From a virus, in the IMG/VR virus record IMGVR_UViG_3300005836_000235, positions 1-44,849 of that record: a DNA stretch of 44,849 nt. One strand, 5' to 3'. Below the pieces are notes generated by a model. It searched no databases. It was not told the DNA's origin and saw only the letters and a program-made list of their open reading frames with translations. Positions within the stretch are counted from its first letter, which is position 1. Each line of letters starts with the position of its first letter. Below are positions 1 to 26,899 of this stretch, one piece after another. A program made the position numbers and the translations under genes.

Positions 1-605
1 GGCGGGTCCGTGAACACGAGATCCGCGGCGTCGCCTGCCATCAGCTTCGCAACTTCGGCGTCTTCAGTCGCGTCGCCCACGAGCAGCTTGTGGTCGCCGA
101 GAATCCACAGATCGCCGGTCGTCGATACCGGAACCTGTGGAGGCTCCGGAACCGCGTCCTCATCCGTCAGTCCTTCTGCAGCGTCCTGCGCGGCCAGCAA
201 CCGTGCCAGTTCCTTGTCCTCGAAGCCAATGAGGCGGATATTGAAATCCTCGTCCTGGAGCGCAGCCAACTCGATCCTCAACAGTTCTTCGTCCCAGCCT
301 GCGTTCAGCGCCAGCTGATTGTCCGCAATGATGTACGCTCGCTTCTGCGCGTCCGTGAGGTGATCGAGGACAATTACAGGCACTTCGGTCAGCTGCAACT
401 TCCGCGCGGCAAGCAGTCGACCGTGGCCGGCGATGATTCCGGCCTTTGTATCCACCAGGATCGGATTGTTGAATCCGAACTCCGCGATGCTTGCGGCTAT
501 TTGAGCGATCTGTGCGTCGGAGTGTGTTCGTGGATTGCGGGCGAACGGAATCAATCGCCCGATCGGCCACAGCTCGATACGCCGGACAACGGGGTACGCG
601 GACAT
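1..605 (-). CDS. ParB-domain DNA methyltransferase, N-terminal part (cut by window edge)
   Basis: The frame is open from an ATG at 605 to the left edge, so the 3' part lies outside the window. The first ~100 residues match the ParB/sulfiredoxin-like fold (start MSAYPVVRRIELWPIGRL, then IIAGHGRLLAARK and DHLTDAQKRAYIIADNQ). After a linker comes GDLWILGDHKLLVGDAT, and the last visible residues are LVFTDPP, the beginning of a DPPY methyltransferase motif. This order (ParB domain, then motif IV) is that of phage beta-class N4/N6 methyltransferases. A Shine-Dalgarno GGAGGG lies about 7 bases before the ATG. The gene has the same layout as the complete methyltransferase at 42026-43375 but a clearly different sequence. 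Probable role: modifying phage or host DNA; the target is unknown. Confidence 0.88.
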   Translation of the reverse strand, partial: MSAYPVVRRIELWPIGRLIPFARNPRTHSDAQIAQIAASIAEFGFNNPILVDTKAGIIAGHGRLLAARKLQLTEVPVIVLDHLTDAQKRAYIIADNQLALNAGWDEELLRIELAALQDEDFNIRLIGFEDKELARLLAAQDAAEGLTDEDAVPEPPQVPVSTTGDLWILGDHKLLVGDATEDAEVAKLMAGDAADLVFTDP

Positions 606-637: not shown

Positions 638-667
638 CCTTCGGAGGGTGCGCTTTGCGCTGGCCTG
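638..667. repeat. 30-bp element, left copy
   Basis: Begins CCTTCGGAGGGTGCGCTT and continues GCGCTGGCCTG after one variable base. It matches 44069-44098 at 29 of 30 positions in the same orientation. It contains GCGC-TTT-GCGC and lies 33 bases upstream of the minus-strand ATG at 605. Confidence 0.8.
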
Positions 668-820
668 TCGAACCGACTTCTGCTTATGATTCTACGCTCG
701 TACTCAGCGCGTTGCAAAAGCTTTTTTCACGGCTGGCTTACCGCGCTTATGGCGCTTTTAGCGCAACACGCTTACGGTTCGAGTTCAGGGCACTGGGGGG
801 AAACTGGGGGTACCCCAGCG

Positions 821-859
821 GGTAAGGACGAGGAAATTCGGGTAAGGACGGGTAATTCG
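821..859. repeat. Two tandem copies of a 20-bp direct repeat
   Basis: GGTAAGGACGAGGAAATTCG (821-840) is followed directly by GGTAAGGACGGGTAATTCG (841-859), one base shorter. Function unknown; possibly a regulator-binding site upstream of the left methyltransferase. Confidence 0.75.
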
Positions 860-905
860 TTGTGAAGGCCCCGAGCTTCAGCGGAGCGCGGCAAGTGGCG
901 CTATA

Positions 906-1238
906 TCAAACACGTGTGTTGAATATCAAGGACTTGAGTTGGCTCCCCAAGAGCGACATTGCAAGAAAATGGAAACGCTGACTCAACCAGAGACTACCGC
1001 AAGTGATTGCTTCTCCATACCCTTCGGCAAAATCGATTGGCCACTTCAATGTGGGGGCCACTGTGGCTTTCTCCTCAGAAAAGTTCCCGTGCGGACCAGC
1101 GTTAACTATGGGACCAGAAACGCTGACATGGCGACCCGCCGCAACAGGAGTACCGAATTCTCCGGAAGCGATTGCCGGAATCAGGTTGACGTCGAGCGTG
1201 GAAGCGAGCGCCAGCAGCGTGGCATCTCCCCAACGCAA
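906..1238 (-). CDS. Doubtful small ORF after the PLP-enzyme gene
   Basis: This frame continues in phase after the stop of the PLP-enzyme gene. It stays open for about 135 codons but offers only a TTG start (1238) and no good ribosome-binding site. The conceptual product (about 110 residues, containing LLALASTLDVNLIPAIASGE and AAGRHVSVSGPIVNAG) matches no family I recognise, and the C-terminal third looks like random sequence. The opposite strand is also open here, as is common in GC-rich DNA. It could be a real last gene of the operon, a decayed C-terminal extension of the PLP enzyme, or chance. Confidence 0.25.
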   Translation of the reverse strand: MRWGDATLLALASTLDVNLIPAIASGEFGTPVAAGRHVSVSGPIVNAGPHGNFSEEKATVAPTLKWPIDFAEGYGEAITCGSLWLSQRFHFLAMSLLGSQLKSLIFNTRV

Positions 1239-1313
1239 GACTCGTTGGAAGCCTGATCGGGGACCGGATATGTCGGCGACGCCTCCAGCGGACGCTCCGC
1301 GTGGGCGACACTC

Positions 1314-2456
1314 TCAGTCAAAGATGAAGGCTTTCGGTTCATCTTGCCCCAGGAATCGCGAAGCCATCGATCTGCTGTAGGCGCCCGCGTCGCAGAATGC
1401 GAGGAGATCCCCGACTCTCACTGCCGTGCTCAACACGGTCCTCGCCAGGATGTCTTTTGAAAACGTCGTCTTCCCAACGATCGTGCAGGGCGTTTGCTGT
1501 GCCGAGGCCTCGGATTCACGCAACGGAATCACCCGGTGGCACTCCTTGGGATGATGCAGCGGCCTTGGGAAGACGGCCACGCTTCCGTCCACGGCCACGT
1601 AGTTCTGTCCCCGGAGACACTTGATGTCGGTGATTCGCGTTATGAAGACTCCCGCATCGGCGATCAAGCCTCTTCCAGGTTCGAAGATCACGATGATCTC
1701 CCTTGACAGACGCTTGCGGAGCTGCCTCGCCATCCTGTCGATACATTGGCCAAAGCATTTCAGATCGAACTGTCCCTGTTCCCCTGTGTAGTCGATTCCG
1801 ATTCCTCCCCCGATGTTCAGGTAGTTCAGAGTGGGAACCTCGGCGGCAAACTCGAATAGATACTCGAGGCGCCGGACGAGTTCCATCGCATCGAGAAAGT
1901 TTGTTCCGGCATACATGTGCAAACCGGAGATCTGCCGGCCATGCGAGCTCGAAGAACGCACGATTCGCCGCGCTGTTCCTTCATCCATCCCGAGACGGTC
2001 TGATTCCGCTTCCGCCAGACCGGCCAGGGCTCCACAATTGAGCCGCAGTCCGGCTTCCGTGCCTCCCGATGAAAACCACTGCTCTAACTGCGACTCGGAA
2101 TCCAGGTTGCAGGTGATCCCGGCATCAACGAGTTCGCACATCAACTCCTTGGGAATACCGGAAGAAGTGAACTGGATCTCAGGTGGCGAGAACCCGCAAC
2201 TCAGCGCAAGCTGCAAATGCCGGGATGAATTCACACATGCGCCCACTCCTCCGCGGCTGATGGTGCTCAGCACCGCCGGCTCGTCGTTCGCCATGGTCGC
2301 GAAATATAACCGGAAGCCCTCACTCGATATGGCGTCCCTGATCTCTTCAATTCGCTTCCGGATTCTCGACAAGGAGTAAACATACACGGGGGTCCCGGTG
2401 CGTTCGGCAATCTCTGACAACCACACTCTGTCCATCCCCTGCATGATTGACGCCAT
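1314..2456 (-). CDS. Fold-III PLP decarboxylase homologue lacking the catalytic lysine
   Basis: 380 residues, the normal size for the ornithine/diaminopimelate/arginine decarboxylase family (alanine-racemase-type barrel plus beta domain). Family signatures visible: VYVYSLSRIRKRI at the N-terminus, GLHMYAGTNF, the phosphate-binding NIGGGIGIDY, EPGRGLIADAG, VDGS and near the C-terminus DAGAYSRSMASRF. The PLP-lysine motif, normally YAxKAN, reads FATMAN: Met55 replaces the lysine that forms the Schiff base. The cysteine of the conserved CxSxD active-site loop is also absent (VGKTTFSKDIL). The ATG overlaps the upstream radical SAM stop as TGATG, so translation is coupled. With lysine lost, classical decarboxylation is doubtful. 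It may bind PLP or a substrate non-covalently, serve as a partner subunit, or use a different chemistry. Confidence 0.88.
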   Translation of the reverse strand: MASIMQGMDRVWLSEIAERTGTPVYVYSLSRIRKRIEEIRDAISSEGFRLYFATMANDEPAVLSTISRGGVGACVNSSRHLQLALSCGFSPPEIQFTSSGIPKELMCELVDAGITCNLDSESQLEQWFSSGGTEAGLRLNCGALAGLAEAESDRLGMDEGTARRIVRSSSSHGRQISGLHMYAGTNFLDAMELVRRLEYLFEFAAEVPTLNYLNIGGGIGIDYTGEQGQFDLKCFGQCIDRMARQLRKRLSREIIVIFEPGRGLIADAGVFITRITDIKCLRGQNYVAVDGSVAVFPRPLHHPKECHRVIPLRESEASAQQTPCTIVGKTTFSKDILARTVLSTAVRVGDLLAFCDAGAYSRSMASRFLGQDEPKAFIFD

Positions 2457-4537
2457 CACGACGCGTTCACCAGTTCCTCATCCAGAGCGGAATTCAGCGA
2501 CGCCATGATTGTTTCCGCATCGACGCCATTTTCCGCCCCGCCTTTGCCCGTGTAAGCGATCATCCAGTCTGCCACGGTGAGAGGGCCTTCTTGCAGGGAC
2601 TCCAGAATTTCGAAAATGACGTTGTCAACGCTCAACAGTCTAACTTTACCTTCCGTGTTGACGTGCCACACCAGGTAAAACGGCGTTTCGGCATACTCAA
2701 GGGCCGACCGGCCTTCCAGCGCTGGCGAGACGTCAAAGTCCAGGGCCAAGCTGGCCAGAACGGATCCTTTTGCCAATTGCGTCCCCAAGGTCACTGATGC
2801 AGGCCGGTCGAGCGCGTTGGCCGACGCCGTACGGTAACTCGCCATGGCAGTGGCGGCAAGGCCGGGGGAATTCTCCTCGGCAATGCGCAAGTTCGCCCAC
2901 AATGCTTCCGCGGCTGCTAGCGCCGGCCGCGGTGGATTGTTGCCCGCTTTCAATCCTTGTAGGACGAACTCGGCAAAAGCAGCGGGCGAACCATAGGTCC
3001 TTCGAAACGGCGCTGCCGAGCGGGCTTCGTTTCTGGCGCGAATCCAGCTTTGCCAGTCTCGAAAGACGGCCGCCATCCCTCCACTGCGCTCGGCCAACGC
3101 CAATGACGGCGCAAGCACCGACTCGACAAGGGGAGAGAATTCGTCCACCCCTTCCAGCCAGTCCCTTCCTTCGCCCGGAAATGGCGGCCGGTAGTATGCT
3201 CCAAACAGGTCCTGATCTCCGGCGATCAGCTCGCGATTCGCTCCATCCAATGCCGGGTCGAGCGGCAGATCCACGAAATGTCCGGTACAAACCAATCCTG
3301 TGAGCTTCGGATACAGACTGGAAGCGGCAAAAGGGCAGTATCCGAAAATGTGCGCGGGACGCGCTCCTGCCCGCAGAGATCGTTCAAATGCGCCGAGGGT
3401 AGCTTCGAAGCTCCCCGCGTCCTCTGACGGAAAACCAACGATGAATCCCACATTCGGCGAGATCCCAACCTGCCGGCACATCTCGATCACTTCAAACGAT
3501 CGCTCGACCGGTATGTCTTTCCTGATCTCTCGAAGGATGCGCTGAGAACCGCTCTCGAATCCAAAGTAGACCGCAGTGCATCCCCCTTTCGCCATCCGTT
3601 CCAGCAGTTCGAAATCCACCGTGTCCGTGCGCGCGCTGCAGGTCCAGTTCACGGGGCTTCCCACGTCAATGAGCGCATCGCACACGGCCATCACCCAGGC
3701 GCGGTTTGTGGTGAACAGGTCGTGTGTGAAATGAACTCGTTTCGAGGCGTAGGCGCGCTGCACCGTCCTCACCTCCTCAACGATGCGCCGCGGAGACTTG
3801 ACACGGTGCTTTCGCTGCCAGAACGGCGCTGTCGAGCAGAACTCACACTGAAAGGGGCATCCTCGGCCCACCTCTAAAAAAACCTCCTCACCCTCACTGG
3901 GTTGGTACAGGTCGAATGCTGGATAGGCCAAGTCATCCAGATTGTCCACCAAGGCTCTGTCCCGCCCATTCGTGTTGACTTGCCGCGGGAAAACAAGTGG
4001 CGTGGGCTCCCGACGTTTGTCGTACCGTTGAACGACACCCGGAATCGCGCCACCCTCCCCATGCCCCTGGTAGGAGGCCAGCAATTCCCAAAACGCAAAC
4101 TCCCCTTCGCCGACTACAACCGCATCGACCGTCTGGTGTCGACTAAGTGTCTCAGCGGCTACCGCCGAGGCGTGCGGACCGCCGAGGACAATCTTCGCGC
4201 TGGGGATTTCCCGCTTTACCGCAGCGGCGATCTGCAGGACGTGGTGATAGGAATCACATTCGGTCATGATGCCCACAACATCAGGCTTCCGCGAGGCGAT
4301 CTCGCTGCCAAGCGCTTGATAGAAGCGCGTATCCAGCGGAATCTGGCCCGAGGCGATTCGTCGATTCGTATCGAACAAGGCGCAGTGGGCTTCGGGCATC
4401 CGCTCGCGTAGCGTCCCGGCAAGCGAGAGCAGCCCCAGCGGAAGAAACCCGTACATCACTCCCGGGGCGGGCTGAAAGTCGTTCTGCAGCACCGCGGCAT
4501 GCTGCACATGGGGGCTTGTGGCTAGCAATACTTTCAT
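2456..4537 (-). CDS. Cobalamin-binding radical SAM enzyme with C-terminal PqqD-like domain
   Basis: 693 residues. The N-terminal ~200 residues form a B12-binding Rossmann domain (KPDVVGIMTECDSYHHVLQI, then VLGGPHAS and DAVVVGEGE). The radical SAM core follows, with a CX3CX2C cluster motif in GRGCPFQCEFCST (Cys227, 231, 234), as in methyltransferases and related class B enzymes. The last ~80 residues (from about VRLLSVDNVIFEILESLQEG) resemble a PqqD/RRE winged helix, which in RiPP enzymes binds the leader peptide. The start is taken at the ATG at 4537, whose ATGA overlaps the upstream stop; an in-frame extension further upstream looks like antisense of the neighbour. Likely role: C-methylation or another B12-dependent radical modification of a peptide or small-molecule intermediate. 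Substrate unknown. Confidence 0.9.
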   Translation of the reverse strand: MKVLLATSPHVQHAAVLQNDFQPAPGVMYGFLPLGLLSLAGTLRERMPEAHCALFDTNRRIASGQIPLDTRFYQALGSEIASRKPDVVGIMTECDSYHHVLQIAAAVKREIPSAKIVLGGPHASAVAAETLSRHQTVDAVVVGEGEFAFWELLASYQGHGEGGAIPGVVQRYDKRREPTPLVFPRQVNTNGRDRALVDNLDDLAYPAFDLYQPSEGEEVFLEVGRGCPFQCEFCSTAPFWQRKHRVKSPRRIVEEVRTVQRAYASKRVHFTHDLFTTNRAWVMAVCDALIDVGSPVNWTCSARTDTVDFELLERMAKGGCTAVYFGFESGSQRILREIRKDIPVERSFEVIEMCRQVGISPNVGFIVGFPSEDAGSFEATLGAFERSLRAGARPAHIFGYCPFAASSLYPKLTGLVCTGHFVDLPLDPALDGANRELIAGDQDLFGAYYRPPFPGEGRDWLEGVDEFSPLVESVLAPSLALAERSGGMAAVFRDWQSWIRARNEARSAAPFRRTYGSPAAFAEFVLQGLKAGNNPPRPALAAAEALWANLRIAEENSPGLAATAMASYRTASANALDRPASVTLGTQLAKGSVLASLALDFDVSPALEGRSALEYAETPFYLVWHVNTEGKVRLLSVDNVIFEILESLQEGPLTVADWMIAYTGKGGAENGVDAETIMASLNSALDEELVNAS

Positions 4538-5910
4538 GCGGTCTGCTCCATTTCGTGCGTCTTGGTTCGAACCACCGGCATGTTGCTCTGTGTTCCTGTC
4601 GTGGTGGCTTCCAGCAGTTCTGTCCTCTGAATCGTGCTCTTGATTTCGAATTCCGACGCCCCGCATTGAAAGTAGTTGCCATGCCTGGCGTACGACATAG
4701 CGGGACAGCGCGAGGCGCAGTAGTAGCGCTCGTCATTAATTTCGCAGTCCTTGCAAGTGTTCTCGAAGTTCGCCCAACTGTACTGGCGGATCTCCCAATC
4801 GTCTCTCCATACGTCGGGAAACGGCCTCTCGGAAATATTGCCAGAAGGAAACAGGTTCTCGGCCGCGCACATCGTGCAGGGGAACACGGTTCCATCGGCG
4901 GCAACATAGCCGAGAAACCGTCCGCTCGAGCATCGCCGTGTCATGTACGCCAGGCTCAGCCCGTAATTGAAAATCACTCCCACGCACAAGCCCGCCTTTC
5001 GGTGATACTCATGCTCCCATTCGCATTCCTGCAGCCAAAACCGGCCAGCCGCCTCTACGTGTTCTTCGGTGTTTTCCAGATCGGCGCGCTCTTTTCCCCG
5101 GCCGATGGGACTGAACGGAACACTGCGGATCGACACCTGATGCTGTTTGGCCCACACCACGAGCTGCGCGAGTTGGGCGACATTGCCGCTGTGGGTGTTT
5201 GTCATGATGTTGGTCAAGAAACCGTGTTTGTGCGCGCGGACGATCGCTTCGAGCGCGAGCGTCGTGTGAGGTTCGAAAGACCATGCGCCTTGGGCCGGCT
5301 CAATCGAGCACAATTCCGTGTGGGGCAGCTGTTTCAGTCGCGACTGCGCATGCGGATGATGCAGATCATCGACGGAGACGCTGAGGATCACGCCATCGGT
5401 GGGAAGGCTCGATAGTAACTTGTCGCTCAATAGCAGGCCGTGGGTGGCGACACCGACCAACAGGCCTAACTCCCTTGCTCGGCGTACCAGTAGGGCAAAG
5501 TCGGGATGCAGCGTCGGTTCGCCGCCAGTGAAGGCGACGGCCCACACTCCCATCTGCGCCATCTCCCCGAGCACTTCCAGCCACCTTGGAGTAGACATCT
5601 CCGCTGTCCGCGCCTGCCCTCCGTGAATGTAGCAATGCGGGCAGGCCAGATCGCACTTTCGCGTGATCTCGAGCCACACAAGCGGAGGAGTGGTCAGATG
5701 GAAGGGTTCGTGGATCGGGAGCTTTTCGAGCAGGAAGGGTTCCAGTTCCGCGCGTGTGACGCCCGGGCCCAGTACCGTCATCGCCAGCGGGTTCGTCAGT
5801 ACGATCTCTCCGTCCGGAAACCCAGCAATAAATCCGAACTCTTCACGATTGAAACGGACTTTGCGGGTATCTCGACCCCCATCGGGCACGCGGACTGCAC
5901 CATCAGGCAT
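4534..5910 (-). CDS. SPASM-domain radical SAM enzyme (peptide-modifying type)
   Basis: 458 residues. After an N-terminal ~65-residue region that may be a degenerate RRE, the radical SAM motif is ITRKCDLACPHCYIH (Cys86, Cys90, Cys93). GVWAVAFTGGEPTLHPDF follows, the usual SAM-contact motif. The C-terminal SPASM region carries many cysteines (CSSGRFLGYVAADGTVFPCT, then CKDCEI, YYCASRCPAM and FQC), expected to hold two auxiliary 4Fe-4S clusters, as in PqqE and sactipeptide/ranthipeptide synthases. I chose the ATG at 5910: GGAG sits about 9 bases upstream and the gene overlaps the PqqD-like gene by 8 bases. Likely role: radical crosslinking or another modification of a ribosomal peptide. Confidence 0.92.
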   Translation of the reverse strand: MPDGAVRVPDGGRDTRKVRFNREEFGFIAGFPDGEIVLTNPLAMTVLGPGVTRAELEPFLLEKLPIHEPFHLTTPPLVWLEITRKCDLACPHCYIHGGQARTAEMSTPRWLEVLGEMAQMGVWAVAFTGGEPTLHPDFALLVRRARELGLLVGVATHGLLLSDKLLSSLPTDGVILSVSVDDLHHPHAQSRLKQLPHTELCSIEPAQGAWSFEPHTTLALEAIVRAHKHGFLTNIMTNTHSGNVAQLAQLVVWAKQHQVSIRSVPFSPIGRGKERADLENTEEHVEAAGRFWLQECEWEHEYHRKAGLCVGVIFNYGLSLAYMTRRCSSGRFLGYVAADGTVFPCTMCAAENLFPSGNISERPFPDVWRDDWEIRQYSWANFENTCKDCEINDERYYCASRCPAMSYARHGNYFQCGASEFEIKSTIQRTELLEATTTGTQSNMPVVRTKTHEMEQTA

Positions 5911-6247
5911 GCTTTCGCTCCTCGACAAATCCGTGCGCGAATAGTGTTTGTACGATCCCGTGAACCTTCTTTATGTTGGCGACCTTCGATTTCGGGTCCG
6001 CGCCGGCGGATTCGGTGCACCGCGCCACTACTTCATCCACCGTCCTGGCACCATCCAGGTATCCCCACGCTTTGTAGCCCACCTCGTCCAGTTCCAGGAA
6101 GCGCCGCCTGGCAAAGTTGTGCAACAGGATCCCCGGCGGTGCGATCGTCCACAACACGTTGTCACTGCGCTCCAGAACTCGCTCGTCCGCGGACTCGGTA
6201 CGCGCTTTCTTCTCGGGATTATGCTTCGCCGATGCGCTCTGTCTCAT
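5903..6247 (-). CDS. PqqD-like RiPP recognition protein
   Basis: 114 residues. After a charged N-terminus the protein shows the PqqD/RRE pattern: beta strands around NVLWTIAPPGILLHNFARRRFLELD, then GYKAWGYLDGARTVDEVV, and a C-terminal helix pair ending IKKVHGIVQTLFAHGFVEE. PqqD-family domains bind leader peptides and present them to radical SAM partners, here most likely the SPASM enzyme encoded immediately downstream. The start overlaps the QueA-like stop (ATGA), so the genes are translationally coupled. The domain is the strongest sign that the operon acts on a ribosomal peptide. Confidence 0.82.
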   Translation of the reverse strand: MRQSASAKHNPEKKARTESADERVLERSDNVLWTIAPPGILLHNFARRRFLELDEVGYKAWGYLDGARTVDEVVARCTESAGADPKSKVANIKKVHGIVQTLFAHGFVEERKHA

Positions 6248-7272
6248 ATGTACAAAACAGCGTCGCCAAATTCGTAGAACGACAGCCTCCGCGCCGAGGC
6301 TTCGTGATAGGCTTTCATCACCAGCTCGGCGCCGGCAAAGGCCGCATCCAGCACGATCAGACTTGTCTGGTACTGGTGGAAGTTAGTGAAGTACCCGCCT
6401 ACCGCTTTGAACTCGTAGCCCGGTGTGATGTACAAACTGGTCCGCCCGGTTTGCGCGCGGACTGCGCCTTGATGCGGAGCCGCACTCTCCAGTGCCCGCA
6501 GGCTTGTGCTTCCACAAGCAAATACTCGCTTGCCCGTCCGGTGCGCTTCGTTCACTGCTTCCGCAGTCTCCTCCGGAACGACGAACGATTCCTCCCACAT
6601 GACGTGTTCCCCCACGTCTTCTTCAAGGAACGGCAGCCAACTGCCGACCGAGTGCAGAGTTACGAATCGCACGCTGACTCCGCGCGCCTGGAGCGCCGCC
6701 ACCAAGGAAGGGGTAAAGTGGAGGCCGGCCAGTGGACTCTCCACGGTGCCTTCTTGCGTTGCGTAGTATGGATTGAGATGATCGACTGTCCAATTGTTCT
6801 CGTAGAAGAAACCCGGTATCGCCTTCCCTTGCGCTTTTAGCAAATCGCGCAACCCGGTGCCCAGCGACGATACTCTCGCCAGCCTGTATTTTGTGACTCC
6901 CATCTCGTCCACCTGAATCTGGTGGCCGCCGGAGAGTTGTATTCTTGATCCCACCACGACGTCGTGCGTGGGAAAGATCCGGCAAAGGCCCTGGTCCGCA
7001 GTCTCCAACTCGACAAAACGCAATTCGACCAAGCCGCCAACGACCGTCCGGCCCTTCAAGACGCCGGGGATTCTCTTGCTGTTGTTCAGAACGAAAACGT
7101 CCCCAGGGTTGCACCAACCGGGAAGATCCGCCACGCGCGACATCGATGACTTCCCTTTCGCTCGATCGACCACAAGGAGCCTGCCCCGGTCTCGATTCCC
7201 AAGCCGTATCTCACGCGGCGTCCCTTCGATGTTCTCGGGAATCAGTTGATATCTGAGATCGCTGATGTTCAT
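6244..7272 (-). CDS. QueA-family S-adenosylmethionine ribosyltransferase-isomerase homologue
   Basis: 342 residues from the ATG at 7272, the usual length for QueA. Recognisable blocks: MNISDLRYQLIPENI (N-terminus), NPGDVFVLNNSKRIPGVL, YATQEGTVESPLAGLHFTPS (family PTAGLHFT), GSTSLRALES, and the C-terminal ITPGYEFKAVGGYFTNFH followed by RLSFYEFGDAV. QueA transfers and rearranges the ribose of SAM onto 7-aminomethyl-7-deazaguanine in tRNA. No other queuosine gene is present here, and this gene is coupled to PqqD and radical SAM genes, so the acceptor is probably not tRNA. Divergent positions (SPLAGLHF for APTAGLHF, for example) support a specialised paralogue. An in-frame GTG at 7380 would add 36 residues that do not resemble the family. 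Confidence 0.87.
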   Translation of the reverse strand: MNISDLRYQLIPENIEGTPREIRLGNRDRGRLLVVDRAKGKSSMSRVADLPGWCNPGDVFVLNNSKRIPGVLKGRTVVGGLVELRFVELETADQGLCRIFPTHDVVVGSRIQLSGGHQIQVDEMGVTKYRLARVSSLGTGLRDLLKAQGKAIPGFFYENNWTVDHLNPYYATQEGTVESPLAGLHFTPSLVAALQARGVSVRFVTLHSVGSWLPFLEEDVGEHVMWEESFVVPEETAEAVNEAHRTGKRVFACGSTSLRALESAAPHQGAVRAQTGRTSLYITPGYEFKAVGGYFTNFHQYQTSLIVLDAAFAGAELVMKAYHEASARRLSFYEFGDAVLYI

Positions 7273-7413
7273 GAATCGTTCCGGTCTGCTGATTCTCTGG
7301 CTCTTAGTGCCGCCCGGTTGTCCCACTGCGCGTATTTCACGCGCCGGGCAAACTCGCCGCACCGGGATGAAAAACACCAAGGGTGTCGTGGTTGTGGGAT
7401 AGCCCCTGTCGGT

Positions 7414-7884
7414 CTACTGTGCGACGCCGACGGTGGCGGCTACGGTCGCAATCCGCTCGTTCAGCACGCGGACGCCCTTGGCGGTGGTAGCCAACTTGCC
7501 CGAAATCACCGGCTGACCCACCAGGGCGTTGTGGATATGGCTCATCTGCCAGTTCTTATCCTGATCCGAATTCCAGATCACCGTCTGACGGATGGTTGTC
7601 GTGATGCCGTCCACAGTGACCTGCAGAGTTTGCGCGAGCACAGCCTGGTCCCCCGATGGCTGGACGTCGCTGCTGATTACCTGCACTTTCCGTTTTGTGC
7701 GGAACGTCGGCTGAAATGCTTCCTGGAACCGTTTGCGACCGACCATTGGTTCGACCGAGTTGAGGTTGAACACGCGCACGTCCTCTCTTAGATAATCGAA
7801 GAAGCGCGCGTCACCCGAGGCGTAAGCCTTGAGCGAGTCTCTCATTGCACGGTCCAGTTTCGGGTCACCTTTTGCGGATGGCAT
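7414..7884 (-). CDS. NTF2/SnoaL-like protein with C-terminal tail; candidate RiPP precursor
   Basis: 156 residues from the ATG at 7884, which has AAGGGAG nine bases upstream; the ATG at 7893 would sit directly on that site. Residues 1-122 have the pattern of an NTF2-like cone: helix LDRAMRDSLKAYASGDARFF, then LREDVRVFNLN, VGRKRFQEAF, and strands ending IWNSDQDKNWQMSHIHNA. The last ~30 residues (ISGKLATTAKGVRV then LNERIATVAATVGVAQ) extend beyond the fold. This is the first gene after the promoter, just ahead of the modification enzymes. That position suggests a precursor with a folded leader and a C-terminal core, by analogy with nitrile-hydratase-like leaders of proteusins. The alternative is an NTF2-like enzyme or binding protein of the pathway. 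Confidence 0.8.
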   Translation of the reverse strand: MPSAKGDPKLDRAMRDSLKAYASGDARFFDYLREDVRVFNLNSVEPMVGRKRFQEAFQPTFRTKRKVQVISSDVQPSGDQAVLAQTLQVTVDGITTTIRQTVIWNSDQDKNWQMSHIHNALVGQPVISGKLATTAKGVRVLNERIATVAATVGVAQ

Positions 7885-7935
7885 CCTAAACATCTCCCTT
7901 CGAGAAAGATCTATTACCCATTGACCGAGGCATCG

Positions 7936-7949
7936 CATCTAAATAGATG
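7936..7949. promoter_or_regulatory. Perfect palindrome, candidate operator
   Basis: CATCTAAATAGATG is a 6-bp inverted repeat with a 2-base centre. It lies 18 bases downstream of the putative -10 and about 50 bases before the NTF2-like start codon. A repressor there would block transcription. Inferred from position and symmetry only. Confidence 0.5.
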
Positions 7950-7966
7950 TCTCATCGATCTGGCCA

Positions 7967-7995
7967 ACTGTATCATAGGCTAGTTTTTGAGTCAA
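7967..7995 (-). promoter_or_regulatory. Putative sigma70-type promoter of the radical SAM operon
   Basis: On the minus strand TTGACT (7995-7990) and TACAGT (7972-7967) are separated by exactly 17 bases. It faces the NTF2-like gene, and transcription would start near 7960. The segment is more A/T-rich than its surroundings. Confidence 0.5.
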
Positions 7996-8011
7996 AGGCC
8001 CGAATTGAGGC

Positions 8012-8057
8012 TTGAAATCAGGTTTGAATTCAGGTCGACTTAAGGTTGAAGTCAGGT
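8012..8057. repeat. Three copies of TTGAANTCAGGT
   Basis: TTGAAATCAGGT (8012-8023) and TTGAATTCAGGT (8024-8035) abut, and TTGAAGTCAGGT (8046-8057) follows. The copies differ only at the sixth base. They start 12 and 22 bases apart and lie 17-60 bases upstream of the -35 box of the operon, where an activator would bind. A partial relative lies near 7987. Confidence 0.8.
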
Positions 8058-8083
8058 GTCAATGCAACCGCCTTCGCGTTCAT

Positions 8084-11000
8084 TCAATAGATAAAGGAGC
8101 GGTCATCACTCGTGGGCAACGGGATCGTCCATCCGAATACGCAGAGATGGTCGTAAGCCCAGAGCTTGATCGAGGGCAGGCCGAGACGGCTGACGCTCAC
8201 GAACTCCCTCGTCCAGGGCCAAGTACCGTAGTAGAGGCCCATCAGATAACGGCAGTGAGCCTGGTCCCAGGCGAGTTCCGTCCACGGATACCGCGCGCAG
8301 CGTATCGCCTGGTCCAGATTGTGGTTGATCCCCGGATACTGATAGCCCTCGATCAGGAACGTGTCGAAGCCCGAGCCCGCGCGAGTGGTCCATTGCGAGG
8401 GCAGGTTGATGTACCGCGTTAGCTTGCAGTTGTCCGGATCATTCACGTCCATTGGCCACAGGAGCTCGAACACAGCCGACGGGCACTGCGACAGAACGTA
8501 GCTCTGGATGGCGGCCACATAGTTGTAAAGGCGGATCCGAAGAAAGTTGGCATCCGCGTAGCTGTTGATTGATGGATCGTCGTTCGGCGTGTGAAACGTG
8601 GCGAGCGCGCGGCCCAACGCCAATTGTGCCGCGGCCTGCGTGTCGGCATCGTAGAATGCCATCCCGGACGAGTTGGCCTGGAACCACCAGAGGATTTCCC
8701 CGAACTGGAGCTTGGGCGTCAGTCCCGCTGTCAGCATCAAGCCCGCCATCGCGGCGTGAGCCTGCCCGATGTAGCTCTGCGGCCCGGAACTGAAGGCGAT
8801 CTGCGAACTGTTCAGCGTGCCGAAGCCGGTGGCGGTCTCGACCGCCGTGCCGTCAGGAAACCGCTGGAGCCACACCTGGCCGGCGACCGAGGGCTGGCTC
8901 GGGTCTTCAGGCGGTTGCACCAACTCCTGCGAGAATGAGCAGACGGCGCTCATGTTGTTCGCCTTGAGCAGACCGAAGAAGTCCGCGTTCCAGTCGCGGA
9001 ACGCCCGGTTGAGCACTGGCGTCTGGGTCGGATCGATGACCCATTTCGTGCCGTACGTTCCGCCTTGCAGATCGCCAGTCACCGTGGCTTGGCCGCTGCC
9101 GGTATTCGTGCCGGGCAGCGCGGCGTACACGTGATACTGCCACACGCTCGCGAACGAATGCGATGTGATCGTGAGGACGCTGCCGGAGGCCGTGGCCCAG
9201 ACGCCATCGAAGATCGCATTGATGAAGTTGGCGAAATGCCGGGCGATGGTGTCGTTCGTATCCTGCCCGCCGAAGACCGTCTTGCCGATCGCGGAGCCGC
9301 CAACGTGCAACCAGACGACGTCCTGATCGCTCCAGTTGCCCGAGAACGTCACCGTGCATGTGGGGTACGACGGATTTGACGCCACCGATTGCTTCCACCA
9401 GAAGACGCCGCAGTAGTGGTCGATCTCGCCCAGCAGCCCAAGTTTCTGAATGTTCCACACCAGCCTTTGCGGCGACAGCTTGTACGTGTTGTCCGTGTCG
9501 AAGTCGGTGGCCACGGCTACGGCAGTGGTAGTGGTAACCGGATCCGGAACATCGCTCGCCACCGCGCATTCGAGGAAATCGAAATAGAAGTACCAGCCCT
9601 GGCTCGACGCGTTCTTGTTGCCGGATAGCGTGATTACCACCTTGTGCTGCCCTGCCGCGACGCCGGAGAACAAGAGGCGCCGCGTTTGAGACGTGGTGGC
9701 GGCGGGGTAGTAGCAGTCGACCGTTAGCGGCGCGCCGCCATCGACCGTCGCGGTTACCATGCCGCAGTTGGTGTCGAGGCGGGTGCCGACGTAGATATCG
9801 TGCGTGGACTGGCAGTGCGTCTCGACGGTGACGCTGGCACCGGAAGCGGCCGCCCGGATCGCGCGTCCCTGGCTCCAGAAAGCTAACGCACCGTTCACCG
9901 GATCGTTACCGGGAGCGGCCTCCCAGTATCCGGAAGTGCTCACCCATGTGCTGTCTTCTTCGATGCGTACCGAACCCGGCCCAGCGATCTTGAGCGACCG
10001 CTTGCTCGCTGGGTTGCTCGTCACCGTCCAGTTCGTGACCACGAGCTGCCACTCGGTTGACTGGTATGCCTGGCTGTTGGGCAAGGCGGGCGCGATGGTC
10101 CACCAGACTTTGTCGACATTGCTCCAGCCGGACCCATTGGACAAAGCTGTAAAGTCGATGTGAACGTGCCATGATACGTTGTCCGAAGAGCCGCCGGAGA
10201 GGTTCCAGTTGACCGCTGTGAAATACAAGCGGCTGCTGCTGTTGTTGTCCGTCTGATAGAACGCGACGATGTTGCCGTCGGCACCGGGCGCGGCCGTGAT
10301 CACCAACTGGTTCGGCAACACCACGGCGGCCGAGACCACGACGGGACCGTTCTGCACCCAGTTGATGGCGTTGATCTGCTGGGCAATGGACTGGAGGATC
10401 GACGCCGCGGTTGTCTGCGTCAGAGAGTCGGAAGCCGATCCATCAGAACTCGAAACCGCCACCGGCCCGGAGACCCCAGCTTTCAACGTGATGAAAATCT
10501 CGTTGCCGGAGGTGCCGCCCGTGGTGGCCGTGCAGTTCGGATCGGAGGCGTTGATCTGCCCGGCGATGTTGCTCGCGACGCCGGCGCTATTCAGCGAACC
10601 TTCCAGGCAAGAATACGTCGCCGACCCGATCGTGACCCAGTGGTTGTATGCGGCGTTGCCCTGCCACCACATGGCCTGATCGGTTGTCGGGTGGGCCGCC
10701 GAAATCGCGGGGCTGATGAAGGACTGGTTCTGATACCACAGCGTGACCTTGTCGCCGGGCTGCGGATTGTTCAGGTTGAGAACGTAGGTGGCCGAGGCGC
10801 CCGTTCGGCCAGTCGTATTACACGTGACCGTGATGCCAGGCGTGCCGATCCACTTCACATCGTTGTGGCCGACGCCGTTGATGGAGTAATCGAGCGTGTT
10901 CCAGTCGGTCCACGCGTTCTTGAGCGACTCCCAGGATTGAATGCCTTGCCACGTAACATCGAAGTCGAGCACGAGGCCCGTGAGATCGCCGTCTGGAAGA

Positions 11001-11197
11001 TAGGAGAACAGCGGGTGCCCGAATGGATCGTCCTTCTGGAACAGGACCAGCACGACGAAATCCGCCATGTCGCGGAAAACGCCGGAGACGGTGAATCCAG
11101 TATCCGAGGCGCCCCACAGCGCGGCGGCTGCGCCGTAGTCGTCGAAGCCCTGCAGGTGCATCGTGCGATGCGGTTGCAGTTTGTAGATCGGGTCCAT
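8084..11197 (-). CDS. Large tail protein with barrel-like C-terminus (putative tail fibre or virion glycosidase-like)
   Basis: 1037 residues, directly downstream of the tail-tip gene in the phage reading direction, with the ParA/HEPN island between them. The N-terminal ~200 residues are beta-rich (MDPIYKLQPHRTMHLQGFDD, later GLVLDFDVTWQGIQ). The middle (about 420-560) resembles a carbohydrate-binding or jelly-roll module (EAAPGNDPVNGALAFWSQGR; GQHKVVITLSGN). From about 580 the sequence looks like an alpha/beta barrel (LKANNMSAVCSFSQEL, PKLQFGEILWWFQ, FELLWPMDVNDPDNCK, FDTFLIEGYQYPG). I do not recognise a named family. Position and domains suggest a receptor-binding or surface-glycan-acting tail protein. 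It is the last structural gene before the radical SAM operon. Confidence 0.7.
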   Translation of the reverse strand: MDPIYKLQPHRTMHLQGFDDYGAAAALWGASDTGFTVSGVFRDMADFVVLVLFQKDDPFGHPLFSYLPDGDLTGLVLDFDVTWQGIQSWESLKNAWTDWNTLDYSINGVGHNDVKWIGTPGITVTCNTTGRTGASATYVLNLNNPQPGDKVTLWYQNQSFISPAISAAHPTTDQAMWWQGNAAYNHWVTIGSATYSCLEGSLNSAGVASNIAGQINASDPNCTATTGGTSGNEIFITLKAGVSGPVAVSSSDGSASDSLTQTTAASILQSIAQQINAINWVQNGPVVVSAAVVLPNQLVITAAPGADGNIVAFYQTDNNSSSRLYFTAVNWNLSGGSSDNVSWHVHIDFTALSNGSGWSNVDKVWWTIAPALPNSQAYQSTEWQLVVTNWTVTSNPASKRSLKIAGPGSVRIEEDSTWVSTSGYWEAAPGNDPVNGALAFWSQGRAIRAAASGASVTVETHCQSTHDIYVGTRLDTNCGMVTATVDGGAPLTVDCYYPAATTSQTRRLLFSGVAAGQHKVVITLSGNKNASSQGWYFYFDFLECAVASDVPDPVTTTTAVAVATDFDTDNTYKLSPQRLVWNIQKLGLLGEIDHYCGVFWWKQSVASNPSYPTCTVTFSGNWSDQDVVWLHVGGSAIGKTVFGGQDTNDTIARHFANFINAIFDGVWATASGSVLTITSHSFASVWQYHVYAALPGTNTGSGQATVTGDLQGGTYGTKWVIDPTQTPVLNRAFRDWNADFFGLLKANNMSAVCSFSQELVQPPEDPSQPSVAGQVWLQRFPDGTAVETATGFGTLNSSQIAFSSGPQSYIGQAHAAMAGLMLTAGLTPKLQFGEILWWFQANSSGMAFYDADTQAAAQLALGRALATFHTPNDDPSINSYADANFLRIRLYNYVAAIQSYVLSQCPSAVFELLWPMDVNDPDNCKLTRYINLPSQWTTRAGSGFDTFLIEGYQYPGINHNLDQAIRCARYPWTELAWDQAHCRYLMGLYYGTWPWTREFVSVSRLGLPSIKLWAYDHLCVFGWTIPLPTSDDRSFIY

Positions 11198-11533
11198 TGT
11201 TGAAGATTGCCCTTATGATCCGTGGAGAAGCAACAGAGGGCTTCGACGGATACTCTGGCGTAACTGCAGTCGCGTGAGGTCACTTCTACGCATCGCCGAC
11301 TTGAACGAAGCCGCTGGCGCGCCGGACGCTACGCGTGGCCTGCGAGGGACGTGTTTTCCTGCCGTCGGGGCTGCACCGGGAGTCGCAGCGGTGACGGTGG
11401 GACTCGCTACGTCATTCCCTTATTGCATCTATAACTTACGGATTCCATGTTGCCGCCTCAATCACAAGACGCCGCTAATGCCAGGCTCTTCGCTGTGGTT
11501 GTGTTAAACTTCTTGCGATCCATCTACAGTTTT
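11198..11533. other. Non-coding segment upstream of the ParA-like gene
   Basis: About 336 bases without a convincing gene, between the divergent tail-protein and ParA-like genes. An extended -10-like TGTTAAACT ends at 11510, 23 bases before the ParA ATG, but no good -35 is visible. No strong Shine-Dalgarno precedes that ATG, so the transcript may have a very short leader. No repeat marking an insertion edge was found. Confidence 0.4.
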
Positions 11534-12574
11534 ATGGCCAAGATTATCTGTCTGTTCAATCATAAAGGAGGCGTTAGCAAGACCACGACTGCTTTCAACC
11601 TGGGCTGGATGATGGCCCTCAAAGGCAAGCGCGTGATTCTGGCCGACTTTGACCCTCAGTGCAATCTGACAGGGATGGTCATGGGCTTCAAGAAGGTAGA
11701 CGACCTCTCTGCAATCTATAGCAGCGCACCGCCCAACAACGTGAAGGACGGCCTTGCACCGGCGTTCGAATCGCAGCCGCGACAGATCGCGCCTGTAAAA
11801 TGCGTTGAGGTTCAGGGCGTTGAGAATTTGTTTTTGCTGCCCGGTCACATCGAGCTTGCGGAGTATGAAACGACTCTCGGGATTGCGCAAGAACTCAGCG
11901 GATCGCTGCTGGCCCTACGCAATTTGCCCGGCTCTCTTCGTTTTCTGTTGGATGCAACAGCAGTTAAGTATGAGGCTGACTACATTCTCGTAGATATGAG
12001 TCCAAGCCTCGGACCGGTCAATCAGAACTTATTGACAACCTCGGATTTTTTCATTGTTCCGCTGCACCCAGATTATTTTTCGGCGATGGCGCTTAGCTCA
12101 CTTGCCAAAGTCCTGCCGCGCTGGAAGGCTTGGGCTGAAACGGCATTCAGCATCGACGCTTTGGCGAACGCGGACTATCCCTTTCCACGGCCCCAGCCTA
12201 TTTTCATCGGAGCCGTGATTCAGAAGTACAGGCCCCGCATGGGCAAGGCGAGTAAGGCCTTTCAAAATTGGATCGATCAATTGATCACGGGTCTGAAGAG
12301 TACGCTTCTGCCGGTGCTCGAAAAGTCAGGGATGGTCCGGGACAATCTATTTAAAGAACGATTGGGTCTTGAACCTTGGAATCCCATTTTGGAGGTGGCG
12401 GATTTCAATAGCATCATCGCGTTGTCGCAGGAGCATCAAGTCCCTGTGTATGCCCTGACTGCGGAGCACGCAGAACAGCAAGGCGCTGTCTGGGACCAAA
12501 CGAAAAAGAGCATGGACGTCTTCTTTAAAGCCTTTGCCGAATGCGCAGAGAAGGTGTTCGCTCTAACGAATTGA
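11534..12574 (+). CDS. ParA/Soj-type ATPase
   Basis: 346 residues on the strand opposite the phage genes. The deviant Walker A motif KGGVSKTTTA starts at Lys11 and is followed by VILADFDPQCNLTG, as in ParA/MinD ATPases. The Walker B region is DYILVDMSPSLGPVNQNLLT, followed by FIVPLHPDYFSAMALSSL. The C-terminal half (GAVIQKYRPRMGKASKAFQ) has the usual layout of ParA-like proteins in accessory regions. There is no ParB or parS here; the partner is instead a HEPN protein starting seven bases downstream. An ATP-dependent switch controlling the HEPN partner is more likely than plasmid partitioning. Confidence 0.88.
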   Translation: MAKIICLFNHKGGVSKTTTAFNLGWMMALKGKRVILADFDPQCNLTGMVMGFKKVDDLSAIYSSAPPNNVKDGLAPAFESQPRQIAPVKCVEVQGVENLFLLPGHIELAEYETTLGIAQELSGSLLALRNLPGSLRFLLDATAVKYEADYILVDMSPSLGPVNQNLLTTSDFFIVPLHPDYFSAMALSSLAKVLPRWKAWAETAFSIDALANADYPFPRPQPIFIGAVIQKYRPRMGKASKAFQNWIDQLITGLKSTLLPVLEKSGMVRDNLFKERLGLEPWNPILEVADFNSIIALSQEHQVPVYALTAEHAEQQGAVWDQTKKSMDVFFKAFAECAEKVFALTN

Positions 12575-12581
12575 AGCCCGC

Positions 12582-13235
12582 GTGACCCCTATCGCGCATT
12601 TTGAGGCACTCTGGACGCGGTGTAGCGAACTTTCCGCGCTACATGCGTATCTTGCAAACAACGTGACGGGCGCATTACATCCGGAAGAGATCTTGCGCGC
12701 GGAATGGGTCGCCAGAGTTGCCGCTCTGGATCTGTATGTTCACGAATTGACGGCACAGCGAATGGTCGCCATTTTTGAAGGGCGGCTTCCATCGACTGCA
12801 GCTTATCAGCGATTTGTGGTGTCGAACGAAACGCTTGATAGAATCCGGCAGGCGATAGTGGCCAATGTGCCATCCGCCATCATAGCTCCTGCCTCTGCCA
12901 GCGCTGCATTTGATCTGCATGTTCGAACGGATCTCGGCAGGAAGACTCTTCAGTGCCCAGACGATATCGCTGATGCGGTTAGGCTTTGTTCCGGCGTGGA
13001 ATTGTGGAATGAGGTGGCTGCTCGCCTCGGAGCACCACCTGCCAAAAAAAACGATGCTGCCAAGAGCATAAAGAAAACTCTATCTCTCGTGGTCGAACGG
13101 CGCAACAAGATTGCCCATGAAGGCGACCTCCAGCCGCCGCCGCTGCGGGAGCCGTGGCCTATCAGCCAAGCCGACGTTGCCTTTGTTGCGCAACAGATAG
13201 AAAGCATCGTGCGAGCTATCGACGCCATTGTCTAG
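12582..13235 (+). CDS. HEPN-domain protein (RiboL-PSP-HEPN-like), putative RNase toxin
   Basis: 217 residues, GTG start seven bases after the ParA stop, so the two are co-transcribed. The protein is largely helical, with LWTRCSELSALHAYL and EWVARVAALDLYVHELTAQR near the start. It ends with the HEPN signature VVERRNKIAHEGDL, where Arg174-N-K-I-A-His179 fits the RX4-6H active site of HEPN RNases. After it comes the helix DVAFVAQQIESIVRAIDAIV. HEPN domains are common effectors in toxin-antitoxin, abortive infection and other anti-phage systems. I infer that the ATPase upstream senses infection or restrains this effector; the pair is not one I can match to a named system. Confidence 0.8.
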   Translation: MTPIAHFEALWTRCSELSALHAYLANNVTGALHPEEILRAEWVARVAALDLYVHELTAQRMVAIFEGRLPSTAAYQRFVVSNETLDRIRQAIVANVPSAIIAPASASAAFDLHVRTDLGRKTLQCPDDIADAVRLCSGVELWNEVAARLGAPPAKKNDAAKSIKKTLSLVVERRNKIAHEGDLQPPPLREPWPISQADVAFVAQQIESIVRAIDAIV

Positions 13236-17730: not shown

Positions 17731-17815
17731 AACTTTTCTACGAGGGTGTACGCCGCTTGATCTTCCAGCCGCCGTATAGGCATGTGGACGGTCAAAGAAG
17801 TCTTCGTTTCTTTCC

Positions 17816-17851
17816 TGGTATAAACTGCCAATTGCCGCCGTTTGTTATACT
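17816..17851 (+). promoter_or_regulatory. Putative extended -10 promoters of the TPM-like lipoprotein gene
   Basis: TGG-TATAAA (17816-17824) and TG-T-TATACT (17843-17851) are two extended -10-like elements, both with five of six matches to TATAAT. They lie about 80-110 bases before the ATG at 17928. Neither has a good -35, which extended -10 promoters can lack. Confidence 0.4.
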
Positions 17852-17927
17852 CCCGGAAAGCGTCATTGCCTTGATGCTGCAAACTCCGGCCCGAGGCTGT
17901 CGAGCCGTCCGTATCAAAGGAGATCGA

Positions 17928-19346: not shown

Positions 19347-19442
19347 CGATTGCATCGACTTACCGGAGAGATCCCGCTATGTACCCGCTGCCTGAGGTTC
19401 CAATGGAAAGGCATGTTGCGCAGTGTAACCATAGGAGACCAT

Positions 19443-19859
19443 CTACGCCACCTCCACGAGTTCCAGTGCCTGTACGTTCGTCCGTGCGATGTCCGTGGCC
19501 TGCGCCCAGTTGCCGCGAAACACCACCGTCACGCGGCCCTGCGTGTTGTTGCCGGTCGGATCGTGGTTGCTGCCGATTTGCTGGCCGGTCGCCACGTCGA
19601 ACGGATTGTAGAAGGCAAACGGGGTCAGACCGCCATTCTGAGAGACCCAGAAGCTGTACAGCGCCGCGAGTGCTGACGCACTCAGGCGCTTGCTGAGCCG
19701 GAACGTCCGGCGCGAGGTCTGCGCGAGTTGCGACCGCTGGATCGTGCCGCCGTGATACTCGTTCTGGAGTTGAGCGTACTCGCGCAGCTCCGTAAACGCG
19801 GTGCACAGCGAGGCGGGCATCACCCCACTGGGCGCGGCGTTCTGAATGTTTCCAGGCAT
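19443..19859 (-). CDS. Minor tail protein
   Basis: 138 residues. It contains LSASALAALYSFWVSQNGGL and the block PFAFYNPFDV, and ends with QGRVTVVFRGNWAQATDIAR before ALELVEV. This pattern (a body taking a dozen residues of the RxF/FW type, then a beta strand ending in LxEV) resembles minor tail proteins of the DUF2460 or lambda gpM neighbourhood and is echoed in the N-terminal part of the tail-tip protein (13330-17730). It is encoded between the beta-helix protein and the tail-tip gene, as expected for the tail tip. A plus-strand lipoprotein gene separates it from the tail-tip gene. Confidence 0.65.
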   Translation of the reverse strand: MPGNIQNAAPSGVMPASLCTAFTELREYAQLQNEYHGGTIQRSQLAQTSRRTFRLSKRLSASALAALYSFWVSQNGGLTPFAFYNPFDVATGQQIGSNHDPTGNNTQGRVTVVFRGNWAQATDIARTNVQALELVEVA

Positions 19860-19874
19860 GAGCGGCAGCGCGGG

Positions 19875-26623: not shown

Positions 26624-26899
26624 ATGACACTCATTCCATCCCGAGAGCAGTGGCGTAAATGGTCACTGATTAGCAGGGCATCATACGTGGGTGCTGTCGT
26701 CGGAGTTCTTGCTCTCATCCTGACTATCGCGCTCCCGTATTGGAGCAACAATAATGGGGGTTCTTATTCCAAGGTCAACGTTAGACAGACTTCGAGTGGT
26801 CCACAGAGCCCGAATGTCATCGGCATCGGTGGCGATGCAACAGTCACCTACGGGAGTAACGCTGCCGAAAGTCCTAAGCTGCCGCAAGAAAAGAAATGA
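26624..26899 (+). CDS. Small single-pass membrane protein paired with the WD40 protein
   Basis: 91 residues from the ATG at 26624 (GAGGTGG a few bases upstream). A cytoplasmic N-terminus (MTLIPSREQWRKWSLISRAS) precedes one membrane helix (YVGAVVGVLALILTIALPYW). An external segment follows with the motif SGPQSPNVIGIGGDATVTYG. A very similar motif occurs near the N-terminus of the next protein. The TGA overlaps the next ATG (ATGA), so the two are translationally coupled. Function unknown; the shared motif suggests they interact or form similar beta-strand stacks at the membrane. Confidence 0.7.
   Translation: MTLIPSREQWRKWSLISRASYVGAVVGVLALILTIALPYWSNNNGGSYSKVNVRQTSSGPQSPNVIGIGGDATVTYGSNAAESPKLPQEKK

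Follow-up and report, generated by a model that had tools for sequence, protein, structure and literature searches.

A six-gene radical SAM operon with a divergent QueA-like protein in a phage record, and its relatives on bacterial plasmids and in bacterial genomes

Structure and distribution of the operon

In this study, we investigated a six-gene operon in the window, that is, the whole 44,849 bases of the IMG/VR virus record IMGVR_UViG_3300005836_000235, a contig that is not circular and was analysed without an attached host genome. The six genes, all on the minus strand, encode an NTF2-like protein, a QueA-like protein, a PqqD-like protein, a SPASM radical S-adenosylmethionine (SAM) protein, a B12-binding radical SAM protein and a protein of decarboxylase fold. 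We confirmed that the operon is real, as it recurs in other genomes and is thus not a chance run of open reading frames (ORFs). We consider it probable, with some reserve, that the operon specifies a mycofactocin-like pathway on an NTF2-fused precursor, in which QueA-type chemistry would be one tailoring module and a small molecule or a modified tail would be made.

An earlier note, made from the letters of the window, had described five overlapping genes preceded by an NTF2-like gene with its own promoter and repeats, and this layout was borne out. The overlaps are 4 nucleotides (nt) between the QueA-like and PqqD-like genes, 8 nt between the PqqD-like and SPASM genes (presuming the ATG at 5910 as the SPASM start), 4 nt between the SPASM and B12 genes, and 4 nt between the B12 and decarboxylase-fold genes. 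The NTF2-like gene lies upstream, separated from the QueA-like gene by 141 nt. Two sigma-70-like sites were counted in 7000-8120 on both strands, against a mean of 0.4 in shuffled sequences. The features are as follows, with their basis in brackets.

7414 to 7938, minus strand: NTF2-like protein (SnoaL_3/DUF4440) of 174 residues with the conserved C-terminal tail GVRVLNERIATVAATVGVAQ (Pfam, AlphaFold2 (AF2), Foldseek, tail alignment)
6244 to 7272, minus strand: QueA-like protein, a divergent member of the S-adenosylmethionine ribosyltransferase-isomerase family (Pfam, NCBIfam, tree, residue comparison)
5903 to 6247, minus strand: PqqD-like protein (PF05402; homologues at the equivalent position in 5 of 5 type A loci)
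4534 to 5910, minus strand: SPASM radical SAM protein (Pfam Radical_SAM and SPASM, NCBIfam, CxxxCxxC and C-terminal cysteines)
2456 to 4537, minus strand: B12-binding radical SAM protein (Pfam B12-binding and Radical_SAM, NCBIfam)
1314 to 2459, minus strand: decarboxylase-fold protein, DapDC/BtrK-like, with Met replacing the lysine that binds pyridoxal 5'-phosphate (PLP) (Pfam Orn/DAP/Arg decarboxylase domains, alignments)
7995 to 7967, minus strand: sigma-70-like promoter candidate, TTGACT-17-TACAGT (consensus match only)
8002 to 8057, strand not assigned: degenerate 12-nt tandem repeat of 4.9 copies, upstream of the operon

The full order, which we term type A, was observed in the window and in four bacterial loci, namely on plasmid pRmeGR4a of Sinorhizobium meliloti GR4, on a plasmid of S. 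medicae T10, in Hymenobacter perfusus and in a Bacteroidota metagenome-assembled genome (MAG). The first five genes, from NTF2-like to B12, stand in order at all five loci that have the type A QueA-like protein, and the decarboxylase-fold gene is present at four of them, the contig of the fifth (the Bacteroidota MAG) stopping within the B12 gene. The co-occurrence of the genes elsewhere, which had been expected, was therefore found, in an operon that is rare. In both Sinorhizobium loci, a CPBP intramembrane protease gene follows the operon; on pRmeGR4a (13902-20236 of locus L002), this is succeeded by genes for a 1276-residue CHAT-domain protein and an AIPR protein.

The pathway is rare and mobile, with finds in three bacterial phyla and in a single phage record. 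With the SPASM profile at E 1e-60 and the known seeds counted in, matches were recorded in 2 of 396 Acidobacteriota genomes, 1 of 390 from the order of Hymenobacter, 1 of 397 from the order of Bradyrhizobium, 1 of 369 from the phylum of Bradyrhizobium and 1 of 345 from the phylum of Hymenobacter, with G265 as the sole new genome; these counts are lower bounds, because at most four or five candidates were scored per listed genome. A scan of genome contigs with two strict patterns gave six family members and one unrelated sequence. An Omnitrophota locus with 25% identity (L012) belongs to a different radical SAM cluster and was excluded, and the Mesorhizobium loti record CP050294 lies outside the loci analysed. 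Among 72,556 plasmid records, only five had NTF2 matches at E 1e-5, and these are the top five of the SPASM search; the NTF2 homologue is operon-specific among plasmids. No viral relative of the operon was found by single-sequence scans with the QueA-like and SPASM proteins, and the 61 viral loci matched by the SPASM profile were all weak or short (34% over about 120 residues in the top row, and 59% over 34 residues in another). In the phages collection, SPASM matches numbered 7, with none reaching 80% coverage, and QueA matches 21, the best 15 of which all fall below 36% identity.

Divergence of the QueA-like protein

The QueA-like protein of the window matches the Pfam family Queuosine_synth over its full length (E 2e-71) and scores 242.6 bits against the NCBIfam QueA model, below the equivalog cut-off of 324. 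The other four type A proteins are 49-65% identical to it. Its position relative to ordinary tRNA QueA had been set beforehand as a check, and, as the earlier note had supposed, it falls outside: in an 87-row tree of QueA-family proteins from three phyla, whose bootstrap had not fully settled and in which 15 rows have an unusual letter make-up, the five type A proteins group in a single clade (support 100/99, stem length 1.23) that excludes the other QueA-family proteins. The fragments L018, L232 and L233 were removed before the tree was built, while L234 (a very long branch), L019 and L020 were kept in it and excluded from the residue count; QueA-family matches without a locus were not used, except Hymenobacter's own.

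Across 79 ordinary QueA proteins, 42 columns reach a conservation of 95% or more, and type A retains 22 of these, a likeness that accompanies the shared Pfam family. Conversely, type A has 31 invariant positions whose residues are rare (<5%) among the same 79, and the changes include positions invariant in all of them, with Q-T replaced by N-P and F by W. These differences go with the separate clade, the score below the cut-off and the place beside radical SAM genes at 5 of 5 loci. The conserved columns kept, together with the type-A-specific changes, suggest that the enzyme probably still binds SAM and uses an acceptor other than that of tRNA QueA. In tRNA, according to passages of PMC1282579, QueA moves the ribose moiety of SAM, with isomerisation, to preQ1; the QueA-like protein may likewise transfer a ribosyl group from SAM.

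Other unusual QueA relatives were also noticed. The Acidobacteriota genome G015 encodes a very divergent second QueA-family protein (L234, 165.8 bits, end branch 3.15), which lies outside both ordinary and type A QueA. Again, Hymenobacter and the Bacteroidota MAG hold a third, longer paralogue (L019 and L020, frames of 433 and 444 residues, 327 and 319 bits).

Conserved tail of the NTF2-like protein

The last 20 residues of the NTF2-like protein form a tail with a mean pairwise identity of 66%, against 36% for the NTF2 domain and 11% for the linker, in five sequences from type A and the related type C operon described below. None of the 138 other 20-column windows reaches this value (best 45%). 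When two sequences of the related type B were added, the tail stood at 52% and the best other window at 38%, with 0 of 137 reaching the tail. The frameshifted protein of L004 and, as near-copies, the proteins of S. medicae and M. qingshengii were left out of these statistics. The tail ends in GVAQ at all six loci of types A and C, and in GTPK at all three type B loci whose frame is intact (L005, L009 and L010, the proteins of L005 and L009 being identical), and the glycine before the last three residues is invariant. The AF2 model, obtained from five sequences with a mean predicted local distance difference test score (pLDDT) of 77.3, displays a confident NTF2 domain and a tail that is a low-confidence helix with a loose end. 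With reference to this conservation, we propose that the NTF2-like protein is a precursor or scaffold.

Radical SAM, PqqD-like and decarboxylase-fold proteins

The SPASM protein bears CxxxCxxC and C-terminal cysteines, and its best NCBIfam matches are mycofact_rSAM (MftC) at 87.7 bits and PqqE at 86.7 bits, both far below their cut-offs. The nearest NCBIfam model of the B12 enzyme is ApyD, at 255.9 bits with a cut-off of 750; the part of PMC11117315 that describes ApyD states that it methylates the Tyr C-beta of the penultimate residue, next to the C-terminus of its precursor. The PqqD-like protein, whose count of homologues includes the Bacteroidota MAG, is a probable peptide-binding RiPP recognition element (RRE), RiPP standing for ribosomally synthesized and post-translationally modified peptide.

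The decarboxylase-fold protein is homologous over its full length to diaminopimelate decarboxylase and BtrK, and shares with BtrK the Tyr in G-x-H-x-Y. However, Met replaces the PLP lysine in 9 of 9 family members (FATMAN where the KAN motif is expected), whereas Lys stands there in 5 of 5 PDB relatives among the matches listed (37 matched), and the GPxC motif is altered to G(K/R/N)(T/S)T. An ordinary PLP decarboxylase is ruled out by this change at the Schiff-base position. The His-to-Tyr change was not counted as a second catalytic loss, since BtrK has Tyr there as well. The loss of the lysine indicates that the protein is probably not a PLP enzyme and that a non-PLP role is likely. The PLP-enzyme homologue of the earlier note accordingly stands as regards the fold and falls as regards the catalytic lysine.

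Related operons of types B and C

Type B was examined in the six loci below; SPASM and B12 genes are present throughout, with no QueA-like gene in any.

L004: plasmid of Mesorhizobium huakuii 583
L005: plasmid of M. huakuii 7653R (the record start cuts off the B12 gene)
L009: M. qingshengii
L008: Bradyrhizobium uaiense (begins within the operon, inside the DegT gene)
L011: Reyranella MAG (begins within the operon)
L010: Terriglobia MAG

The decarboxylase fold is present wherever that side of the locus is covered. Upstream of SPASM, genes for a DegT aminotransferase and a split transketolase were found in 6 of 6 loci, and a phosphodiesterase/phosphatase-family gene in 5 of 6, L008 starting inside DegT. 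Downstream, a TldD-related gene occurs in all five loci that cover that side and DUF3050 in four of these, Terriglobia being the exception. Four of the six loci (L004, L005, L009 and L010) show the NTF2 gene. In M. huakuii 583, the NTF2-like gene (3465-3950 of L004) is frameshifted, relative to L005, ahead of the conserved tail, which was found in another frame, and DegT is annotated as two pieces; the two observations suggest that the operon may be decaying there.

Type C is known from a single locus, L149 of the Acidobacteriota genome G265. Here NTF2, SPASM and B12 genes are followed by genes for a DHO_dh-family protein, a creatininase and a nucleoside-deoxyribosyltransferase-like protein, and neither QueA nor the decarboxylase fold was found in the 19.9 kb of the locus. 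Nucleoside-deoxyribosyltransferase-like and thymidylate-synthase-like genes (4270-4791 and 11377-12402) were noticed on either side of this operon.

The action of the SPASM and B12 enzymes on the tail would be the core step shared by all types, with QueA or DegT/transketolase as alternative tailoring. As several versions of the operon have one common core, their comparison could reveal a shared intermediate if the proposed reading is right.

Proposed pathway and comparison with known systems

In the pathway that we propose, the NTF2-like protein would be a ribosomal precursor, with its globular domain as carrier and a mobile C-terminal tail holding a short core after the invariant glycine (...G-VAQ). 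The PqqD-like protein would present this tail, and the SPASM and B12 radical SAM enzymes would modify its C-terminal residues by cross-linking, decarboxylation and/or C-methylation. The decarboxylase-fold protein, having no PLP lysine, may bind the substrate or assist, and the QueA-like enzyme would use SAM as donor of a ribosyl group for an amine or another nucleophile, located either on the tail or on the core after its release. The product might then be set free by a peptidase of the host or of the operon, such as the CPBP protease in Sinorhizobium. We infer the tail as substrate, all of this chemistry, the order of the steps and the function of the product.

The nearest known route is mycofactocin. 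As described in PMC7491314, MftA is bound by MftB, and its C-terminal Val-Tyr, preceded by a glycine, undergoes decarboxylation and cyclisation by MftC. MftE then releases the core, and the LldD2-like MftD oxidises it once released (passages of PMC7491314 and PMC10885120). Parts of PMC10885120 describe MftE as a creatininase homologue, name TldD/E or membrane M50 peptidases as serving other RiPPs, and mention the TldD family in RiPP leader removal. The TldD-related gene of type B was counted in favour of the proposed pathway. In type C, the creatininase and DHO_dh-family genes lie right after the radical SAM genes, which was counted for a mycofactocin-like route (compare MftE and MftD); LldD2-like and DHO_dh enzymes both use flavin mononucleotide (FMN).

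The operon resembles mycofactocin in a candidate PqqD-like chaperone, in a SPASM enzyme that matches MftC best (PqqE being 1 bit behind) and in a predicted C-terminal core after Gly, and, in type C only, in the DHO_dh-family protein and creatininase. It differs in a precursor that would be NTF2-fold and of about 150-174 residues, whereas MftA is a 31-residue peptide; in the core, VAQ or TPK here but VY in MftA; in the added B12 radical SAM enzyme, and in type A the added QueA-like and decarboxylase-fold proteins; and in having no glycosyltransferase gene in the window operon. Neither an MftE-type creatininase nor an MftD-type oxidising enzyme was found by Pfam among the six window proteins. 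With aminopyruvatide it shares the best match of the B12 enzyme, to an ApyD that acts near the C-terminus of its precursor in the account of the source cited above, but the score is 255.9 of 750 bits and the window operon has no MNIO, P450 or methyltransferase genes. Pearlins (3-thiaglutamate, ammosamides) are comparable in that a small product is built on the C-terminus of a scaffold and TldD/E-type peptidases occur (parts of PMC10885120), whereas no PEARL aminoacyl-tRNA-dependent ligase domain is found among the six window proteins, and the chemistry here would be of the radical SAM kind. As defining features of mycofactocin, QueA and PLP decarboxylases are lacking, we assigned the operon to no existing family.

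Of the modified-peptide pathway suggested by the earlier note, the conserved NTF2 tail and the peptidase-family genes of related operons give support, while the modification itself is predicted only. Its remark that a protease is lacking holds for the window operon but not for the relatives, which carry CPBP, TldD-related or creatininase-family genes.

Several observations weigh against the proposed pathway. The PqqD-like protein scores 23.3 bits with PF05402, 0.1 under the curated cut-off of 23.4, and has neither an NCBIfam match nor a PDB match at E 1. In the single type C locus, no PqqD-like frame was found in the roughly 270 nt between NTF2 and SPASM in three forward frames, and a search for hidden PqqD-like domains in the SPASM N-terminus or the B12 C-terminus gave nothing significant (hhalign probability <3%). 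The 87.7 bits of the SPASM protein compare with an MftC equivalog cut-off of 265, the cores VAQ and TPK do not contain the Tyr on which MftC acts, and about 150-174 residues is unusually large for a precursor. Instead of holding a core, the tail might serve as a helix on which the enzymes dock.

As a wider proposal, which we advance tentatively and which may well prove wrong, phage and conjugative plasmids would spread a RiPP-like pathway with an NTF2 carrier bearing a three-residue core, a cofactor- or antibiotic-like scaffold built by radical SAM enzymes, and a repurposed QueA moving the SAM ribosyl, that is, sugar or carbasugar transfer outside nucleic acids, interchangeable with the DegT/transketolase module. 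If the proposed pathway is correct, mycofactocin-like chemistry extends to folded carrier proteins, QueA-type SAM ribosyl transfer gains a second substrate class, and a phage carries a complete radical SAM peptide pathway. Literature searches, with subscription papers mostly outside their scope, gave no 'QueA' among the matches listed for QueA with PqqD, radical SAM or RiPP; found nothing for NTF2 with precursor peptide and radical SAM, for 'QueA homolog' in a biosynthetic gene cluster, or for prophage cargo with radical SAM and a ribosomally synthesized product; yielded a single paper, on Acetobacteraceae, for NTF2-like proteins with RiPP leaders; and returned no title pointing to such a pathway for ribosyltransferase-isomerase with natural product and radical SAM.

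Phage setting and alternative explanations

This soil record is that of a tailed phage, as it contains terminase, portal, capsid/protease and tail genes, the tail-sheath gene included. The operon lies between two phage-type genes.

8084 to 11197, minus strand: phage non-contractile tail sheath protein, the right border of the cargo site (PF23845; 42 viral loci)
3 to 605, minus strand: N-terminal part of a ParB/DNA-methyltransferase gene, truncated by the window end, the left border (PF02195)

For comparison, 122 phage loci were used (42 by tail sheath and 80 by terminase), with flanks of up to 10 kb, many of which end short of the cargo site. In 17 relatives inspected, which include the near-identical pairs L025/L026 and L052/L053, the region downstream of the tail-sheath gene holds ORFs without a match to those of the window. 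Judged from the assembled sequences, the phage most likely carries the operon as cargo at a variable site downstream of its tail-sheath gene.

It is possible, though we regard it as rather doubtful, that this cargo serves in defence or lysogenic conversion, acting against phages or competitors or protecting the lysogen, an explanation compatible with the pathway proposed above. The variable site itself is in line with it, since 7 of 10 proteins from this site in relatives have Pfam matches, including McrBC, SNF2 helicase, C5 DNA methylase and integrase, and elsewhere the type A operon has as neighbours AIPR, CHAT-domain and Phd/YefM genes, or HipA_C, Rep3 and ParA, or REase-like and ABC/AAA ATPase genes. 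Against this, no specific PADLOC-DB 2.0.0 model fits the five operon proteins scanned (PqqD-like excluded): matches cover only the radical SAM domains (viperin models for SPASM, one candidate model for B12), with none for the other three. Plasmid and prophage cargo sites, moreover, collect many kinds of genes.

Another explanation would make the NTF2-like protein an enzyme or a scaffold chaperone and not the precursor, with a tail that docks the radical SAM enzymes, the substrate being a small molecule or a peptide encoded elsewhere. Foldseek matches include true enzymes (ketosteroid isomerase and limonene epoxide hydrolase) as well as CaMKII hubs, H-x-H at the end of the NTF2 domain is invariant in 7 of 7 aligned sequences, and the tail model is helical. 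We consider this unlikely, because conservation peaks in the last 20 residues, past a poorly conserved linker, because types A and C end in GVAQ but type B in GTPK, a variation that would suit a core rather than a generic dock, and because relatives hold peptidase-family genes.

It is improbable that a nucleic acid or nucleoside is the substrate of the QueA-like protein, in a queuosine-type modification of tRNA or DNA, and that the protein belongs to the operon only incidentally. The 22 retained columns make SAM chemistry likely, and phages reportedly carry 7-deazaguanine DNA modifications, but the protein belongs to a separate long-stem clade with 31 positions rare in ordinary QueA, and all five occurrences sit in this operon. 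Each of the six genomes to which the loci belong has an ordinary QueA (327.7-453.9 bits, with a partial match in Reyranella), including the two hosts with type A copies (250-254 bits), both Bacteroidota.

We judge it just as improbable that the operon is foreign to the phage, through a chimeric contig or flanking host DNA in the record: none of the 122 loci has a nucleotide match to 650-8000 or encodes a relative of the six operon proteins, within flanks that often stop short of the cargo site, the contig is not circular, and the left-border gene was found only in terminase-side loci (0 of 42 tail-sheath loci), but phage-type genes lie on both sides, the ParB-methyltransferase having stretches of 40-62% identity near the terminase of relatives and being found elsewhere in 4 of 8 tail-sheath records searched whole (one weakly), and the G+C content of the operon region (57-60%) is similar to that of the rest (52-65%). 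One 85-kb record, which is either a circular assembly carried past its full length or a pair of similar phages, has pairs of ParB-methyltransferase genes at a distance of about 59.4 kb, on one strand and with the tail-sheath gene in the interval, so that the order tail sheath, cargo, ParB-methyltransferase exists there.

Two further observations concern the phage itself. Beside the tail-sheath gene (11447-13235), a ParA-like gene is followed by a HEPN-like gene (RiboL-PSP-HEPN, 26.3 bits, cut-off 28.4), perhaps marking a second accessory site. On the plus strand, at 26896-29517, a gene for an 873-residue protein with WD40 beta-propeller repeats lies amid the phage structural genes.

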